A DNA stretch of 15,702 nt. Origin: Eubacterium sp. Its GTDB lineage: Bacteria > Bacillota > Clostridia > Oscillospirales > Acutalibacteraceae. The notes under the pieces were generated by a model. The model made no database searches, was not told where the DNA came from, and saw only the letters and a program-made list of their open reading frames with translations. The translations under genes were made by a program, and so were the position numbers. Location: positions 1-15,702 of the forward strand of contig JAFYGD010000087.1 of assembly GCA_017543415.1 (NCBI GenBank). The letters are read 5' to 3'. Each line of letters opens with the position of its first letter. Positions within the stretch are counted from its first letter, which is position 1. Below are positions 658 through 15,345 of the stretch, one piece after another.

Positions 658-1404
658 ATGCCAAGTACAGTAGTTCTTGAAAAGAAAAAGGCACAGGTTG
701 CTGCTCTTTCTGACAGAATTAAGAATTCCTGCGCAGGTGTAGTAGTTGACTACAAGGGCATTAACGTTGAGGACGACACCAAGCTCAGAAAAGAGCTCCG
801 TGAAGCAGGCGTTAATTACACCGTTGTTAAAAACTCTATTCTTGCCCGTGCAGCTGAGGCTCTCGGCCTGGAACTTGACAATTCGGTTATTGAGGGTACA
901 ACCGCAATCGCTACTTGTGATGACGATTATGTAGCAGCAGCTCGTATTCTTAACAAGTATGCAGAAGGTCATGATAACTTCAATATCAAAACAGGTTATC
1001 TTGACGGCGCTATCATTGATAACGCTAAAATCGTATCTCTTGCAAAATTACCGTCAAGAGAAGTTCTTCTTGCAACAGTATGCAGTGTATTCAATGCACC
1101 TATCGCAGCCTTCGCCCGCGGCGTACAGGCTATTGTTGATAAGGGCGGCGTTGAAGCTTGCGAGCCCGCAGAAAAGGCTGAAGAGGCTCCCGCTGAGGAA
1201 ACAGCTCCTGCAGCAGAGGAAGCTCCCGCAGCAGAAGAGGCTCCCGTAGCTGAAGAAGCACCTGCAGCAGAAGAGGCTCCCGCAGAGGAAGCACCCGCAG
1301 CAGAGGAAGCTCCCGCAGCAGAGGAAGCTCCCGCAGAAGAAACACCCGCTGAGGCTCCTGCAGAGGAAGCAGCCGAAGCACCTGCTGAAGAAGCAGCAGA
1401 ATAA
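658..1404 (+). CDS. rplJ: 50S ribosomal protein L10 with long acidic C-terminal tail
   Basis: L10 is the base of the ribosomal stalk: it binds 23S rRNA with L11 and carries L7/L12 dimers on its C-terminal helix. The start ATG has GGAGGT 8 bases upstream. Residues 1-165 are a normal L10: VVVDYKGINVEDDTKLRKEL and NYTVVKNSILARAA in the rRNA-binding domain, LPSREVLLA near 131, and the L12-binding helix around 147-163 (APIAAFARGVQAIVDK). The family is usually about 165-180 residues, but this protein has 248. From about residue 169 to the end it is a low-complexity tail with about 29 Glu and one Lys. It is followed by rplL, and the leader upstream fits autoregulation. Identity is secure; the tail is the unusual part. 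Confidence 0.97.
   Translation: MPSTVVLEKKKAQVAALSDRIKNSCAGVVVDYKGINVEDDTKLRKELREAGVNYTVVKNSILARAAEALGLELDNSVIEGTTAIATCDDDYVAAARILNKYAEGHDNFNIKTGYLDGAIIDNAKIVSLAKLPSREVLLATVCSVFNAPIAAFARGVQAIVDKGGVEACEPAEKAEEAPAEETAPAAEEAPAAEEAPVAEEAPAAEEAPAEEAPAAEEAPAAEEAPAEETPAEAPAEEAAEAPAEEAAE
1186..1401 (+). repeat. In-frame Glu-Ala-Pro coding repeat at the 3' end of rplJ
   Basis: Imperfect tandem units encoding 5-6 residue blocks of the type (A)EEAPA run through the last ~72 codons of rplJ. Near-identical DNA units such as GCAGAGGAAGCTCCCGCA recur, with synonymous changes (GAG/GAA, GCT/GCA, CCC/CCT) between copies. The repeat is in frame and ends at the stop codon. It could expand or contract by slippage or recombination. 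Confidence 0.85.
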
Positions 1405-4981: not shown

Positions 4982-5040
4982 CAGGCGGACTACGGCGCGG
5001 CTGTTCTGAGGGAGTAATCCACCGCGCAGCCCGTTGCCTG
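4982..5040 (+). ncRNA. GC-rich structured RNA element behind the HTH gene
   Basis: This non-coding stretch begins 2 bases after the HTH stop and folds as one long hairpin. CAGGC (4982-4986) pairs with GCCTG (5036-5040), ACG (4992-4994) with CGT (5032-5034), GCGCGG (4995-5000) with CCGCGC (5022-5027), and GGA (5011-5013) with TCC (5018-5020) around a GTAA (GNRA-type) tetraloop. Its GC content is far above the flanks. No U-tract follows directly; the terminator comes 27 bases later at 5067. It may be a 3'-UTR structure, an RNA processed from the mRNA, or the start of a separate sRNA. I do not recognise a family. Confidence 0.5.
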
Positions 5041-5066
5041 AGATTTTCCCCCTGAATTATTCTATG

Positions 5067-5097
5067 TATCGGCGCCTTTTGGTGCCGATATTTTTTA
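5067..5097 (+). terminator. Intrinsic terminator of the HTH transcript
   Basis: TATCGGCGCC (5067-5076) pairs with GGTGCCGATA (5081-5090), 10 bp with one G-U pair, loop TTTT, followed by TTTTTTATTT. Confidence 0.88.
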
Positions 5098-5105
5098 TTT
5101 ATATA

Positions 5106-5134
5106 TTGCATAAATTCTTATACTATGATAAAAT
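5106..5134 (+). promoter_or_regulatory. Possible promoter of iolG-iolD-iolE
   Basis: TTGCAT (5106-5111) and TAAAAT (5129-5134) with a 17-base spacer lie between the upstream terminator and iolG. The -35 is weak and the -10 good. No clear inverted-repeat operator was seen in the ~35-base leader. Confidence 0.45.
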
Positions 5135-5171
5135 ATTTACAACAAATTTTGCGAAAGGCAAGGTAGAATTT

Positions 5172-6185
5172 ATGAAAAAATTAAAGGTTGGAATTATCGG
5201 TGCAGGCAGAATCGGACAGGTTCATGCAAAATCAATCACCTACCATATTCCTCAGGCTGAAATAGTTGCTATTTCCGATATTTATGAGGAGGGCGCAAAA
5301 AAGGTAGCCGAAGAGCTCGGTATCCCCGCTTATTACAAGGATTATCATGAAATCCTTAACAATCCCGAAATCGAAGCGGTGCTTATCTGTTCTTCAACCG
5401 ATACTCATGCCGATATCGCCTGTGAAGCGGCTGAAGCAGGCAAGCATATCTTCTGTGAAAAGCCCGTTGACCTTACGGTTGCAAAAATCAAAAAGGTTAT
5501 TGCCGCCGTTGAAAAGGCGGGCGTTAAGCTTCAGATAGGCTTTAACAGACGTTATGACCATAACTTTGCCCATATTAAAGCTCTTGCAAACGAGGGTAAG
5601 CTCGGCGACCTTCAGATAATAAAAATCACCTCCCGTGACCCTGAAGCTCCTCCGATTCCTTATGTAAAGGTTTCCGGCGGTATCTTCCTTGATATGACGG
5701 TGCATGATTTTGATATGGCGCGCTTTATCGGCGGCGAGGTTGACGAGGTTTATGCAAACGCTACCGTTATGGTTGATAAGGCTATCGGTGAAGCGGGCGA
5801 TGTAGATACAGCACTTGTTGCACTTAAGTTCAAGAGCGGCGCAATCGGCGTTATTGATAACTGCCGCAGGGCTTGCTACGGCTACGACCAGCGCCTTGAG
5901 GTATTCGGCTCGGGCGGCCAGGCCTCCGCAGCAAACGATACTCCTACCAACGTTGCCTATATCAACGAAAACGGCAATGTTACCGATAAGCCTTTATATT
6001 TCTTCCTTGAAAGATATATGCAGTCGTTTACAGACGAAATGACCGAGTTTATTGACGCGGTTGTAAACGATAAAGCAACAAAGACAACCGTTAACGACGG
6101 ACTTGAGGCTCTCCGTTTAGGACTTGCCGCAAAGCTTTCCGTAGCAGAGCACAGGCCCGTAAAGCTTTCCGAAATTGAAATGTAA
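5172..6185 (+). CDS. iolG: Inositol 2-dehydrogenase (Gfo/Idh/MocA family)
   Basis: It oxidises myo-inositol to 2-keto-myo-inositol (scyllo-inosose) with NAD+, the first step of inositol catabolism. The 337-residue protein has the NAD motif GIIGAGRIGQVHA at 8-20, CEKPVDLT at 95-102 (Lys97), GFNRRYDHNF at 123-132, SRDPEAPPIPYVKVSGG at 154-170, and DMTVHDFDMARF at 174-185 (Asp174, His178). The Lys/Asp/His set is the known catalytic triad of inositol dehydrogenases, and the sequence resembles the Sinorhizobium IdhA branch. The frame is open back to 5034, but that stretch is the terminator and leader; ATG 5172 begins the canonical MKKLKVGIIG and has AGG 8 bases upstream. iolD follows after 25 bases. 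Confidence 0.92.
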   Translation: MKKLKVGIIGAGRIGQVHAKSITYHIPQAEIVAISDIYEEGAKKVAEELGIPAYYKDYHEILNNPEIEAVLICSSTDTHADIACEAAEAGKHIFCEKPVDLTVAKIKKVIAAVEKAGVKLQIGFNRRYDHNFAHIKALANEGKLGDLQIIKITSRDPEAPPIPYVKVSGGIFLDMTVHDFDMARFIGGEVDEVYANATVMVDKAIGEAGDVDTALVALKFKSGAIGVIDNCRRACYGYDQRLEVFGSGGQASAANDTPTNVAYINENGNVTDKPLYFFLERYMQSFTDEMTEFIDAVVNDKATKTTVNDGLEALRLGLAAKLSVAEHRPVKLSEIEM

Positions 6186-6210
6186 TTAATCGACTATAGG
6201 AGTTGTTACT

Positions 6211-8064
6211 ATGAAACGTGAACGATTAACAATGTCCCAGGCGCTCGTTAAATTCCTTGACAATCAGTACGTTGAATTTGACGGAGTTGAAACAAAATTT
6301 GTTTCCGGTATTTTCGGAATTTTCGGCCACGGCTGCGTTGTAGGCGTTGGCCAGGCGCTTGAACAGGGCGGTCATAATCTCAGATTCTATCAGGGTAAAA
6401 ACGAACAGAATATGGCTCTTGCCGCTGTTGCCTATGCAAAACAGATGGACAGAAGGGCAATTATCCCCTGTGTTTCCTCTATCGGCCCCGGCGCAACAAA
6501 TATGGTAACTGCCTGCGGCTGCGCAACTGCAAACAGAATTCCTTTGCTTGTGCTTCCCGGCGATACCTTTGCCTGCCGTCAGCCCGACCCCGTACTCCAG
6601 CAGGCGGAGTTCTTTGATAACTACGGAAGAACCGTTACTGACGCTTTCAGAGGCGTTTGCCATTATTTTGACAGAATTGAACGCCCCGAGCAACTTATGA
6701 CTGCCTGCATTAACGCAATGCGCGTTCTTACCGACCCCGCGGATACAGGCGCCGTATGCCTTGCAATGCCTCAGGACGTTGAAGGCGAGGCTTACGATTA
6801 TCCCGAGCATTTCCTTCAGAAAAGGGTATGGCATATTGACCGCAGACCTATCGCTTTAACCCAGCTTGAAAGAGCAGTTAAGCTTATCAAATCAGCCAAA
6901 AAGCCGATTATCGTATGCGGCGGCGGAGTTCGTTACAGCGCAGCCGAAGAAGAGCTTTTAAGGCTTGCGGTTGCCCATAATATTCCTATTACCGAAACCC
7001 AGGCGGGTAAGGGTATAATTGACTGGAAGCACCCGCTTAACCTCGGCGGTATTGGCGTTACCGGTGGCAAGGCTGCCAACGTTATTGCAAGGGACGCAGA
7101 CATTGTTATCGGCGTAGGTACAAGGTTTACCGATTTTACAACCTCATCAAAATGGCTGTTCAACGAAAACCGCAAGGTGCTCGGCATTAACATCTGCCCG
7201 TTTGACGCTTATAAAATGGACGCAGAGGCTGTTACCGCTGACGCAAGAGAGGCAATCGTTGCCATTGACGAGGCTCTCGGCGATTACAAAACAGCTTATG
7301 CGGGTGAAATCGCAGCGGCTAAAACCGAGTGGGACGCTATTGTTGACGAATTCTATACCAAGGAGCTTGACGGCGGCTTAAGCCAGACCCGCGCTCTCGG
7401 TATTATCAATGAATTTATGGCTGAAAGCGATATAGCTCTCGGCTCCGCAGGCTCGCTTCCCGGCGATATGCAAAGGCTCTTCCGCCCCGGCAGCCGCGGT
7501 ACATACCATATGGAATACGGTTATTCAAATATGGGTTACGAAATCAACGGCGCTCTCGGTGCAAAGCTTGCGCAGCCTGACAGAGAGGTTTATACCTTCT
7601 GCGGCGACGGTTCCTTCCTTATGGGCCACAGCGAGCTTTATACCTCACTTCAGGAAGGCTTGAAGATTAACGTATGCGTATTTGATAATCTCGGCTGGGG
7701 CTGTATTGAAAACCTTCAGAACAATCAGGGTACGGATACCTTCGGAACCGTTTTCCGTGCAAGGAACCCCGTAACGGGTATGCTTGACGGAGAGGATATG
7801 ACCGTTGACTTTGCAAAGATTGCCGAAGGCTACGGCGCAAAGGGCTATTCAATCCATAATTCCGAGGAGCTGAAAGCAGCTCTTGAGGACGCTAAAAAGC
7901 AAACCAAATCTGTTGTATTTGACATCAAGGTTATGCCGAAAACAATGACCCCCGGTTTTGAAAGCTGGTGGCGTGTAGGCGTTGCGGAGGTATCAAAGAG
8001 CGCAACGGTAGCCGCAGCATATAAGGATATGCAGGAAAACATCGCAAAGACATTTGACTATTAA
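6211..8064 (+). CDS. iolD: 3D-(3,5/4)-trihydroxycyclohexane-1,2-dione acylhydrolase (decyclizing)
   Basis: A thiamine diphosphate enzyme that opens the ring of the diketo intermediate to give 5-deoxy-glucuronate. The 617 residues match the family's length. The acetolactate synthase-like layout is clear: N-terminal PYR domain with [13 protein letters not shown] at 60-72 (Glu65, expected to contact the cofactor's aminopyrimidine) and [13 protein letters not shown] at 89-101; a middle domain with [17 protein letters not shown] at 230-246 and [15 protein letters not shown] at 266-280; a C-terminal PP domain with the Mg/ThDP motif [16 protein letters not shown] at 465-480 and FDNLGWG at 491-497. 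TAGGAG about 8 bases upstream supports ATG 6211. iolE follows with a ribosome binding site overlapping this stop. Confidence 0.95.
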
Positions 8065-8075
8065 GGAGATACAGT

Positions 8076-8975
8076 ATGCTTAACCCTAACAAAGTAAAAC
8101 TTGCTATCGCACCAATCGGCTGGACTAACGACGATATGCCCGATTTAGGTGCGGAAAACTCATTTGAGCAGTGTATAAGTGAAATGGCGCTTGCAGGCTT
8201 CAAGGGCAGTGAAATCGGCAATAAGTATCCTGCCGACCCCGACGTTTTAAAGAAGTACCTTGACATCCGCGGACTTCAGATTTGCAACGCCTGGTTTTCG
8301 TCATACCTCACCTCAAAGCCTTATGAGGAAACTATTGAGGCCTTCAAGGCTCACTGCGATAAGCTTTATAAGCTCGGCGCAAAGGTAATCGGCGCGTCCG
8401 AGCAGGGCAATTCTATTCAGGGCGACCTTACAAAGTCAATCCTTGACGAAAAGCCCTATTATACCGACGAGCAGTGGGAAACCGTTGCAAAGGGCTTTAA
8501 CGAAATGGGCGCCTATGCAAAAAGCAAGGGTATGTTCTTCACCGTTCATCACCATATGGGAACGGGCGTTCAGACCGTTGAGGAAATTGATAAGCTTATG
8601 GAAATTACAGACCCCGAGCTTGTATATCTTCTTTTCGATTCGGGCCACCTTACCTTTGCGGGTATCGACCCCGTACCCGTGCTTAAAAAGTATGTAAACA
8701 GAATTAAGCACGTTCACCTTAAGGACGTTCGCCTTGACGTTTACAACAATCAGGTTGTACCGCAGCATATGTCCTTCCTTGACGCTGTAAGAGCCGGCGT
8801 GTTTACGGTTCCCGGTGACGGCGACGTAGATTTCAAGCCTATCTTTGATATTCTTGATGAAGCGGGCTACGAAGGCTGGGTTGTTGTTGAAGCAGAGCAG
8901 GACCCTGCAAAGGCGAATCCGTTTGAATATGCCGTTAAGGCGCGTAAATATATCCGCGAAACCGCAGGACTTTAA
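8076..8975 (+). CDS. iolE: Inosose dehydratase (2-keto-myo-inositol dehydratase)
   Basis: It removes water from scyllo-inosose to give the dione used by IolD. The 299 residues match the family and form a xylose-isomerase-like TIM barrel. Visible are [20 protein letters not shown] near the N-terminus, a metal-site histidine cluster [25 protein letters not shown], the barrel strand [11 protein letters not shown], and [20 protein letters not shown] near the end, a typical IolE C-terminus. AAGGAG (8063-8068) overlaps the iolD stop, which indicates co-translation. The operon has no further iol gene; the DNA after the stop looks like a remnant of another gene and then a terminator. Confidence 0.95.
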
Positions 8976-12981: not shown

Positions 12982-13452
12982 ATGGCAGCAAAGGTTTTTA
13001 AAATGACAGTAGCAGGTAAAGCTGAGCTTGAGGCTGAGCTTGAAAATCTTGAAACCGTCGGCAGAAACGATATTGCGGAAAAACTTAAGGTAGCCCGTTC
13101 CTACGGTGACCTCAGCGAAAACAGCGAGTATGATGAGGCTAAAAGCGAACAGGCTAAAATTGAAGCAAGAATTAACGAAATCAGGTATCAGCTTGACCAT
13201 GCGGTTATTATAGATTCAACCGATAAAAACGCAGTTTCAATGGGCTCAACCGTAACCGTTCTTCGTCTTAAGGATAAGGCAAAGCTCGTTTACAAAATCG
13301 TAGGCTTTTCGGAATCAAAACCAACCGAAGGCAAAATTTCGGATGAAAGCCCTATCGGTATGGCTCTTATGGGCAAAAAGAAGGGCGATAAGGTAATCGT
13401 TGAAGCTCCTATCGGTGAAATTGAATTTGAAATCAAAAAGATAGAAGGATAA
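12982..13452 (+). CDS. greA: Transcription elongation factor GreA
   Basis: GreA enters the RNA polymerase secondary channel and stimulates cleavage of backtracked RNA. The 156 residues are the normal length. Residues 1-75 form the coiled-coil finger, with the acidic tip ARSYGDLSENSEYDEAK at 38-54 (Asp43 and Glu46 being the expected Mg-binding pair). Residues 80-156 form the FKBP-like domain ending in SPIGMALMGKKKGDKV and PIGEIEFEIKKIEG. AAGGAG at 12968-12973 supports the start. lysS follows after 54 bases with no terminator, a neighbourhood often seen in Firmicutes. Confidence 0.97.
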   Translation: MAAKVFKMTVAGKAELEAELENLETVGRNDIAEKLKVARSYGDLSENSEYDEAKSEQAKIEARINEIRYQLDHAVIIDSTDKNAVSMGSTVTVLRLKDKAKLVYKIVGFSESKPTEGKISDESPIGMALMGKKKGDKVIVEAPIGEIEFEIKKIEG

Positions 13453-13506
13453 TTGCGGGGGGCTTTATGCCGCCCGAAAAAACTATGAAAGGCAATAGGT
13501 ACAGCT

Positions 13507-15345
13507 ATGGCAGGAAGGTTTGAAATCACTAAAAGAAGTGATAACACTTTCGACTTTACATTTTATATTGACGATACGGCTGTGGGTACTTCTCCCGTTT
13601 TTGAAACGGAGGACGCCTGCAAAAGAGGCGTTAAGGCTGTAAAAAAGAACAGCCGTATGAAGGTTGAAAATACCGTTAGCGGCGACGAGCAGAAAACTCT
13701 GCCCAAATATCTTGTTGAAAAGGACGGGGATATATTCAGATATACTCTTTTCCTTCAGTCGGGAGCCATTGCTATGGGCGGTTCCGCCGCTTCGGAGCAG
13801 GAAGTGCTTGCTCTTATCGAAAAAATCGGTAACAATGCCAACGCCGCACAAATGAAAATGGCAGAGGTTGTTCTTTCCGAAAACGAGCAAAAGCAAATCC
13901 GTGTGGACAAGCTTAAAGCGCTTCAGGCAGAGGGCAAGGACCCGTTTGAAATCACCCTTGCAACACAAACTCATCATTCAGATGAAATCAAGGCTGACTT
14001 TGACGCTCTTGAAAATCAGGAGGTTGTTATTGCAGGCCGTATTATGACCTGGCGCGATATGGGCAAGGCTAACTTTATTGACGTCCAGGACAGGAACGGA
14101 AGAATTCAGGCATACGTTCGTATGAACGACGTAGGCGAGGAAGAGTTCAGGGAGTTCAAAACCTGGGACATAGGCGATATTGTTGAGGTAAAGGGCTTCG
14201 TTTTCAAAACAAGAACGGGTGAAATCTCCGTTCACGCACAGTCGCTCCGCCTTCTTTCAAAATCCCTTCTTCCGCTGCCTGAAAAATTCCACGGCTTAAC
14301 GGATACTGATACAAGATACCGCAAGCGTTATCTTGATATGATAATGAATCCCGATGTTAAGGAAACCTTCCTTAAGCGTTCAAAAATCATTACTTCAATC
14401 AGGAATTATCTTGACAGCCTCGGCTTTATTGAGGTTGAAACCCCTATTCTTAACTTAATCCCCGGCGGTGCTTCGGCACGCCCGTTCATAACTCACCATA
14501 ATACTCTTGACCTTGATATGTACCTTCGTATCGCAACGGAGCTTTACCTTAAAAGGCTTATTGTCGGCGGTATGGAAAGGGTATATGAAATCGGCAGGAA
14601 CTTCCGTAATGAGGGTATGGACGTTAAGCATAATCCCGAATTTACCTGTATTGAGCTTTATCAGGCATTTACCGATTACCACGGTATGATGGATATTGCC
14701 GAGGCGCTTATAAGAAACGCCGCAAACGAGGTATGCGAAGGCAATCTTCATATTACCTTTAACGGTACGGAGGTTGACCTTGAAAGCCCGTTCAGACGTC
14801 TTACTATGGTAGACGCGGTTAAGGAATATACGGGCATTGACTTTGCGGAATTTATGAGCGATAACGAAAAGGCTATTGCCATTGCAAAGGAAAAGGACAT
14901 TGAAATCGAAAACGGCAAGGCAACCTGGGGCGATATTCTCAATTCCTTCTTTGAGGAATTTGTTGAAGAAAACCTTACCCAGCCCACCTTTATTATGGAT
15001 TATCCCGTTGAGGTTTCACCGCTTACAAAAAGAAAACCGGACTGTCCGGTACTTACGGAGCGTTTTGAGCTGTTTATTATGGGCAGCGAATACGGCAACG
15101 CCTATTCCGAGCTTAACGACCCGATTGACCAGATGGGACGCTTTGAAGCGCAGATGAAGCTGCGCGAAGCAGGCGACGACGAAGCAAATATGATTGATTA
15201 CGATTTCGTTACCGCGCTTGAATACGGTATGCCTCCCACGGGCGGACTCGGTATCGGTATCGACCGTCTTGTAATGCTTCTTACTGACAGCTATTCAATC
15301 CGTGACGTGCTCCTGTTCCCCACGATGAAACCGCTTGATAAATAG
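13507..15345 (+). CDS. lysS: Lysyl-tRNA synthetase (class II) with N-terminal tandem YegP/DUF1508-like extension
   Basis: Class II LysRS charges tRNA-Lys. The frame encodes 612 residues against ~490-500 for the family. A normal LysRS starts at Met118 (MAEVVLSENEQKQIRVDKL): OB-fold anticodon domain ~170-250 (VVIAGRIMTWRDMGKANFI), catalytic core with GFIEVETPILNLIPGGASAR (306-325), motif 2 region YEIGRNFRNEGMDVKHNPEF (360-379), and motif 3 GGLGIGIDRLVMLL at the end. Residues 1-115 are extra and look like two ~45-residue DUF1508/UPF0339 repeats: GRFEITKRSDNTFDFTFYI...KAVKKN (3-48) and PKYLVEKDGDIFRYTLFLQ...IEKIGNN (66-110). No stop or frameshift separates the parts, and there is no ribosome binding site before codon 116 or 118. 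AGG at 13497-13499 lies 7 bases before ATG 13507. A secreted-protein gene starts 9 bases after the stop. Confidence 0.9.
   Translation: MAGRFEITKRSDNTFDFTFYIDDTAVGTSPVFETEDACKRGVKAVKKNSRMKVENTVSGDEQKTLPKYLVEKDGDIFRYTLFLQSGAIAMGGSAASEQEVLALIEKIGNNANAAQMKMAEVVLSENEQKQIRVDKLKALQAEGKDPFEITLATQTHHSDEIKADFDALENQEVVIAGRIMTWRDMGKANFIDVQDRNGRIQAYVRMNDVGEEEFREFKTWDIGDIVEVKGFVFKTRTGEISVHAQSLRLLSKSLLPLPEKFHGLTDTDTRYRKRYLDMIMNPDVKETFLKRSKIITSIRNYLDSLGFIEVETPILNLIPGGASARPFITHHNTLDLDMYLRIATELYLKRLIVGGMERVYEIGRNFRNEGMDVKHNPEFTCIELYQAFTDYHGMMDIAEALIRNAANEVCEGNLHITFNGTEVDLESPFRRLTMVDAVKEYTGIDFAEFMSDNEKAIAIAKEKDIEIENGKATWGDILNSFFEEFVEENLTQPTFIMDYPVEVSPLTKRKPDCPVLTERFELFIMGSEYGNAYSELNDPIDQMGRFEAQMKLREAGDDEANMIDYDFVTALEYGMPPTGGLGIGIDRLVMLLTDSYSIRDVLLFPTMKPLDK

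Follow-up and report, generated by a model that had tools for sequence, protein, structure and literature searches.

A tandem YegP-type domain fused to the N-terminus of lysyl-tRNA synthetase in the group around Eubacterium coprostanoligenes

Human lysyl-tRNA synthetase (LysRS) has an N-terminal segment of about 65-70 residues which is described as disordered alone and as a long helix on tRNA (PMC6213541). Two papers state that bacterial LysRS lacks such an appendage. The C-terminal tRNA_bind module (PF01588) of clostridial LysRS is likewise an appended, nominally tRNA-binding module. The stretch analyzed here (the window) comprises positions 1 to 15,702 of contig JAFYGD010000087.1 from a Eubacterium sp. 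genome, and its lysS gene encodes a LysRS with an N-terminal extension that resembles the YegP/UPF0339/DUF1508 proteins. Appended synthetase domains are already known, while a YegP domain on LysRS appears to be new. A full-text search of one open-access library gave no paper pairing 'lysyl-tRNA synthetase' with DUF1508, and no link of DUF1508, YegP or UPF0339 to any synthetase was found among the papers listed there; a preliminary description of the sequence also knew of no described LysRS with such an appendage. The favored explanation, held with moderate confidence, is that a YegP gene was joined to lysS in frame and now acts as a tethered RNA-binding domain that raises tRNA affinity. Protein-docking, stress-sensing and passenger roles rank below it.

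The gene and its parts are as follows.
13507..15345 (+): lysS, class II LysRS with the N-terminal YegP-type extension, 612 amino acids, including the stop codon
13507..13860 (+): N-terminal extension, a tandem YegP/DUF1508 domain, residues 1-118, from homology and the structure model
13507..13671 (+): YegP repeat 1, residues ~1-55, containing the part recognized by Pfam DUF1508 (24-49); modeled strands 3-9, 15-21 and 24-28, helix 35-48, strand 53-55
13609..13662 (+): basic helix and subsequent turn, residues 35-52, EDACKRGVKAVKKNSRMK, a fusion-specific positive stripe and proposed RNA-binding face
13705..13857 (+): YegP repeat 2, diverged, residues 67-117, from hhalign and the structure model; modeled strands 67-73, 76-82 and 88-94, helix 97-110, strand 115-117
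13861..13956 (+): junction, residues 119-150, probably a flexible tether leading to LysRS (model confidence 47-56 in blocks 121-150)
14023..14256 (+): anticodon-binding OB domain of LysRS, PF01336, residues 173-250, from Pfam
15327 is the last position of the class II catalytic domain of LysRS, 14305..15327 (+), PF00152, residues 267-607, from Pfam

By its sequence the window protein is a complete bacterial class II LysRS, with lysylation of tRNA-Lys as its predicted activity. The reading frame begins with ATG and, as the preliminary description had it, has no break, and LysRS models span residues 126-609 (TIGR00499, 676.4 bits against an equivalog cut-off of 427.6; PRK00484, 725 bits). It shares the complete anticodon-binding and catalytic domains and the greA neighbor with ordinary bacterial LysRS (TIGR00499, LysS), and differs in its 118-residue N-terminal domain, which is absent from 27 unfused relatives in other genera or families. 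The source genome (68% complete) has two other matches, both far weaker than lysS (E 1.5e-22 and 1.1e-9).

The reading of the extension as a tandem YegP/UPF0339 module is supported by homology and by the structure model. Pfam gives residues 1-118 a single match, to PF07411 (DUF1508) at residues 24-49 (E 1.9e-4), and its 21.7 bits just miss the cut-off of 22. A phmmer search finds the solved structures of E. coli YegP (2k8e, E 2e-5) and Shewanella SO_3888 (2k49, E 0.012), which the extension resembles in the whole two-repeat fold and in length. A single hhalign comparison with stand-alone tandem YegP covers columns 1-115 (98.4%, E 5e-15), and the homology runs from end to end of the extension. 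NCBIfam has no match to the extension alone, the second half has no Pfam match, and BLASTP finds no alignment between the halves. The tandem claim is therefore not based on internal similarity; it comes from PF07411 matches in relatives, from the hhalign comparison and from the structure model, in which the extension is strand-strand-strand-helix two times over, as two tandem beta-beta-beta-alpha repeats. Both fused orthologues scanned exceed the PF07411 cut-off (L141, 37.8 bits; L145, 33.3 bits), as do 2 of 80 same-genus genomes, both in LysRS-length frames, and the two stand-alone relatives tested score ~152 bits in two stretches each. At E <= 1, DUF1508 is recovered in each of the 20 aligned orthologues (best 2e-6); no other family reaches more than 3 of them (best E 0.008). 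The preliminary description had named this fusion, and DUF1508 similarity is found by Pfam, phmmer and hhalign. Its two similar halves appear in the model and fail to align by BLASTP, and the PF07411 matches it expected in both halves occur in the diverged fused relative L141 (two stretches), the window matching in the first half only.

The fused domain differs from stand-alone YegP in its attachment to LysRS, in its first helix and in the loss of conserved residues. Stand-alone YegP has NGE-x-IATSE-like sequences conserved in both repeats, and an NGE-x-I-A-x-S-E-type signature, which is our own reading of the stand-alone alignment and has no curated definition, was absent from the fused sequences when looked for per repeat. 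Since these signatures are lost, the fused domain is a diverged homologue that is probably not functionally equivalent to YegP. This bears on a sensory role, in which YegP would sense a stress ligand and tune LysRS activity or add a second job. E. coli yegP is among up-regulated stress hub genes (PMC9501238), and a yegP homologue comes after capK-capS, a regulatory pair located next to immune operons, in 57 cases (PMC13373217). However, the fused form no longer has the residues most conserved in stand-alone YegP, which in each repeat are NG and the A/T-S-E region after it. A ligand site inherited from YegP has therefore probably not survived, and such a role is quite improbable beside RNA binding.

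Initiation at the upstream ATG was compared with initiation at an internal Met.
13490..13506 (+): leader of the fused start, with AGGT at 13497-13500, a weak counterpart of the gaggt that precedes the start in many relatives
All loci but L094 (70 of 71) have a Shine-Dalgarno (SD)-like 4-mer ahead of the fused start. An internal Met at residues 106-125 is present in 69/71 loci and never has such a 4-mer (0/69), against 283/1399 random in-frame codons. In the window, Met116 and Met118 also have none, in line with the preliminary description. The median ratio of non-synonymous to synonymous substitution (dN/dS) is 0.119 for the extension and 0.092 for LysRS residues 130-277 (698 usable of 1711 pairs, 59 loci), values that are rough because synonymous differences are near saturation (median proportion, pS, 0.69). 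The extension is under purifying selection, and the SD pattern together with dN/dS indicates that it is translated and is under a constraint close to that on the enzyme itself. Both lines of evidence favor 13507 as the start site. The calculated mass is 69.6 kDa for full-length LysRS and 56.7 kDa from the internal start, close to the earlier estimates of ~69 and ~56 kDa. An artifact of gene calling or assembly, with the true start at the internal Met and a spurious upstream frame, could be argued from the position of Met116 and Met118 near where unfused LysRS begin and from the weak SD of the window itself. It is nevertheless extremely improbable, given the SD contrast, the coding-type selection along the extension, the homology to a known domain, the frame that is open in 71 loci from named genome records, and residue 118, where some orthologues have V, T or I.

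The extension is present in 71/80 same-genus genomes, including that of the window, and thus in related genomes as the preliminary description proposed to check. The other nine comprise seven without a class II LysRS match at E 1e-40 and two in which LysRS is cut by a contig end before the N-terminus; every readable lysS in the genus carries the fusion. Neither an unfused LysRS nor a stop codon between the parts, which would have suggested an assembly error, was seen among the 80 genomes. These facts also concern the view that the extension is a neutral or merely solubilizing tag without a binding role of its own. It is acidic and compact, and the human RNA-binding appendage has been proposed as a cis-acting chaperone (PMC6213541). 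But a dN/dS near that of the enzyme, a gapless alignment of 20 orthologues and the lack of a readable unfused LysRS in the 80 genomes make a passenger very unlikely.

A scan of named genome records yielded 93 relatives, from which 79 loci were kept. Of these, 71 have the extension and 8 are YegP genes of the Lysobacter type that stand alone. Sixty-eight of the 71 align to the LysRS core, 2 end inside LysRS sequence at a contig end (by eye) and 1 is cut at residue 120. The carriers are gut and rumen bacteria of the group around E. coprostanoligenes, and the fusion is found in the isolate E. coprostanoligenes ATCC 51222 (L098). The L098 protein is identical across 610 residues to that of a same-genus genome (G005), so the genus of the window is that of ATCC 51222; NCBI taxonomy places E. 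coprostanoligenes in Eubacteriaceae. Beyond the genus, the counts are samples from larger groups with some incomplete genomes. The extension profile matches 24 of 398 family genomes. In 14 of them (five genera, 1 truncated at a contig end) frame length or inspection places the match in the fused position; in the other 10, which belong to other genera, it is a stand-alone frame. It matches 55 of 394 order genomes, of which 4 are fused, all in the same genus, and 51 have 122-180-residue frames (26 were read and are stand-alone YegP; the remainder were assigned via frame length). Among 391 class genomes 9 match, and the sole fused one is that of the window.

No stand-alone DUF1508 gene above the cut-off is found in the 80 same-genus genomes, so the separate gene is apparently gone where the fusion exists. 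Candidate second DUF1508 genes in the genus, with matches in 173-183-residue frames (E ~0.02-0.5) and one of 200 residues (E 0.007), were rejected as chance; in two genomes inspected, the one scanned is a fumarase C-terminus (PF05683) and the other looks alike. Apparent stand-alone near-copies of the extension in short proteins were also rejected, as the 16 of 64 matches that were read look like truncated, frame-shifted or chimeric LysRS fusions, and none of the 16 resembles a true close copy standing alone. Two extension records (P0159, P0162) exit the frame at a similar place, after residues ~78-82 (TLF/TLS), probably through sequencing errors. Class I LysRS as a substitute in the same-genus genomes without a LysRS match is not supported, the PF01921 matches there being weak only. 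Separately, a same-family genome (G048) has no class II LysRS match at E 1e-90 and has a strong class I LysRS-type match (L197, G048:C16:113389-114474; PF01921, E 4.3e-110), and both LysRS classes seem to occur within this one family.

The first helix of the extension changes in charge on fusion. Residues 34-54 carry a median charge of +6 in the 71 fused sequences; the value is +5.5 in 4 diverged fusions belonging to other genera and 0 in the 38 stand-alone sequences (36 distinct, since L115/L159 and L117/L160 are the same gene twice). The motif [KR][KR]x[VI]KAVKKxx[KR]xK occurs in 75/76 fused sequences from loci (L144 is a conservative variant) and in 120/120 of the fusions nearest the window among 852 listed; it occurs in 0/38 stand-alone sequences from loci and in 0/120 of the stand-alone proteins listed, out of 8000. 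Within the helix the basic residues share one face; only 98 of 20000 shuffles of the window helix are as one-sided. The gained positive strip suggests that the extension probably helps hold RNA, and it lends support to the extra RNA contacts proposed in the preliminary description, the contact itself being putative. An alternative is that the extension docks a protein partner (another synthetase, EF-Tu, the ribosome or the dimer mate) via the conserved helix. Added synthetase domains in eukaryotes often mediate protein-protein interaction (PMC6794377), and the helix is near-invariant in sequence beyond its charge (A44 and V45 are fixed in 75/75). However, the change from stand-alone to fused form is dominated by the one-faced K/R gain, which fits nucleic acid better, and the upstream neighbor is the usual greA, which hints at no partner; docking is therefore considered unlikely.

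In the RNA-binding explanation, the fused domain is translated with LysRS from the upstream ATG, and it has lost its NGE-x-IATSE hallmarks and had its first helix enriched into a one-faced K/R strip. Most likely it is flexibly tethered next to the anticodon-binding domain. There it would raise tRNA affinity, probably for tRNA-Lys through backbone contacts, like the basic N-terminal domain of human LysRS. The fusion, its fold, its occurrence across the genus, the purifying selection and the charge change are computational results; we infer RNA binding, the RNA concerned and any effect on charging. Several points weigh against this explanation. Stand-alone YegP has the same K/R face, with ~2.7 K/R against 6 in the fused form; fusion has thus built up a surface that was already there. 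The whole extension is acidic (window isoelectric point 5.5; median charge -4). A basic helix can equally bind a protein partner, DNA or membrane, and since YegP is uncharacterized the homology implies no activity. The 120 listed fusions are those nearest the window, and the dN/dS values are approximate as said. The full-length AlphaFold model (mean predicted local distance difference test score 58.7; poor across most of the catalytic part) is too poor to orient the helix relative to tRNA or to interpret domain placement; its listed PDB matches are LysRS in 50/50 cases.

The human LysRS N-terminal domain is the nearest working analogue in a works-like sense only. It belongs to the same enzyme at the same position and has a basic helix with Lys/Arg on one face, and such a one-sided basic helix is present in the extension, where tRNA binding is putative. 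The window domain, in contrast, is a folded beta-alpha domain of ~118 residues. Since the folds differ, the likeness is convergence at most. Pfam, NCBIfam and PDB sequence searches gave no match of the extension to a eukaryotic LysRS N-terminal domain, although a short disordered basic segment might escape such searches. Compared with tRNA_bind, the YegP extension is at the opposite end of the enzyme and in a different Pfam family, and the window protein lacks PF01588. By sequence motif, tRNA_bind is found in 8/27 unfused relatives (2 cut) and 2/68 fused loci (5 cut). Loci L087 and L090 and proteins of ~758 amino acids (P0055, P0084, P0107) have the N-terminal YegP extension and the C-terminal tRNA_bind together.

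The neighbor of lysS bears on the origin of the fusion.
12982..13452 (+): greA, upstream neighbor of lysS, the same in fused and unfused relatives
Because greA is directly upstream of lysS in 24/24 unfused relatives examined, the YegP gene came between greA and lysS, in frame. In the ancestry of the E. coprostanoligenes group, a stand-alone tandem YegP gene would have become attached to lysS at its 5' end, and the separate YegP gene would have been lost or was itself the donor. A tree of 96 distinct LysRS cores was reduced to 48 rows (70 fused thinned to 22 by a list of preferred rows plus rows <88% identical, 26 unfused kept; cores with a matched span <380 residues dropped), the trees being quick and without bootstrap. 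The fused and unfused labels need two changes, the second being Clostridium sp. CAG:217. The genus of the window, g86 and g100 form one well-supported set (99), and genus g88 and one unfused row (L167) are in an unresolved fork beside the remaining rows. On these cores, one common origin for all the fusions is only tentative.

The CAG:217 lysS (L099/L164; G072:C15) is a recombinant: up to residue ~260 it looks like the fused clade, and from there on like unfused relatives, the support in the N-part tree being only 81. Its greA is 71.6% identical to that of the window, against 43-58% in 24 unfused relatives. A coupling of the extension to the anticodon domain, argued from this mosaic, was dropped since the recombinant tract includes greA and is uninformative on which domains cooperate. 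The extensions of L141, L142 and L145 are 37-42% identical to that of the window, and in the diverged fused extensions L141-L145 (genera g88, g100) the basic helix is kept while the rest drifts. By eye, L191 (G788:C8) has likewise kept the basic helix with the rest drifted.

Elsewhere in the window are two other regions.
658..1404 (+): ribosomal protein L10 (PF00466, residues 8-102), with a C-terminal tail of ~75 residues of AEEAP/APAEE repeats
5034..8975 (+): three consecutive open reading frames with Gfo/Idh/MocA oxidoreductase, thiamine-pyrophosphate enzyme and xylose-isomerase-like TIM-barrel domains, which we take to resemble the inositol-catabolism set iolG-iolD-iolE

The fusion gives the uncharacterized YegP/DUF1508 family a concrete biochemical partner, in a genus that includes a cultured species. 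It is possible, though doubtful, that bacteria, by recruiting YegP, evolved an equivalent of the tRNA-interaction domain found on eukaryotic LysRS, with the K/R helix as the adaptation and YegP/DUF1508 generally RNA-contacting. If true, the fusion would be a Rosetta-stone clue to what this widespread family does. If the stripe binds tRNA, it would be an independent bacterial solution to the role of the animal LysRS N-terminal helix, and the fusion would qualify the statement of both papers that bacterial LysRS has no such appendage.
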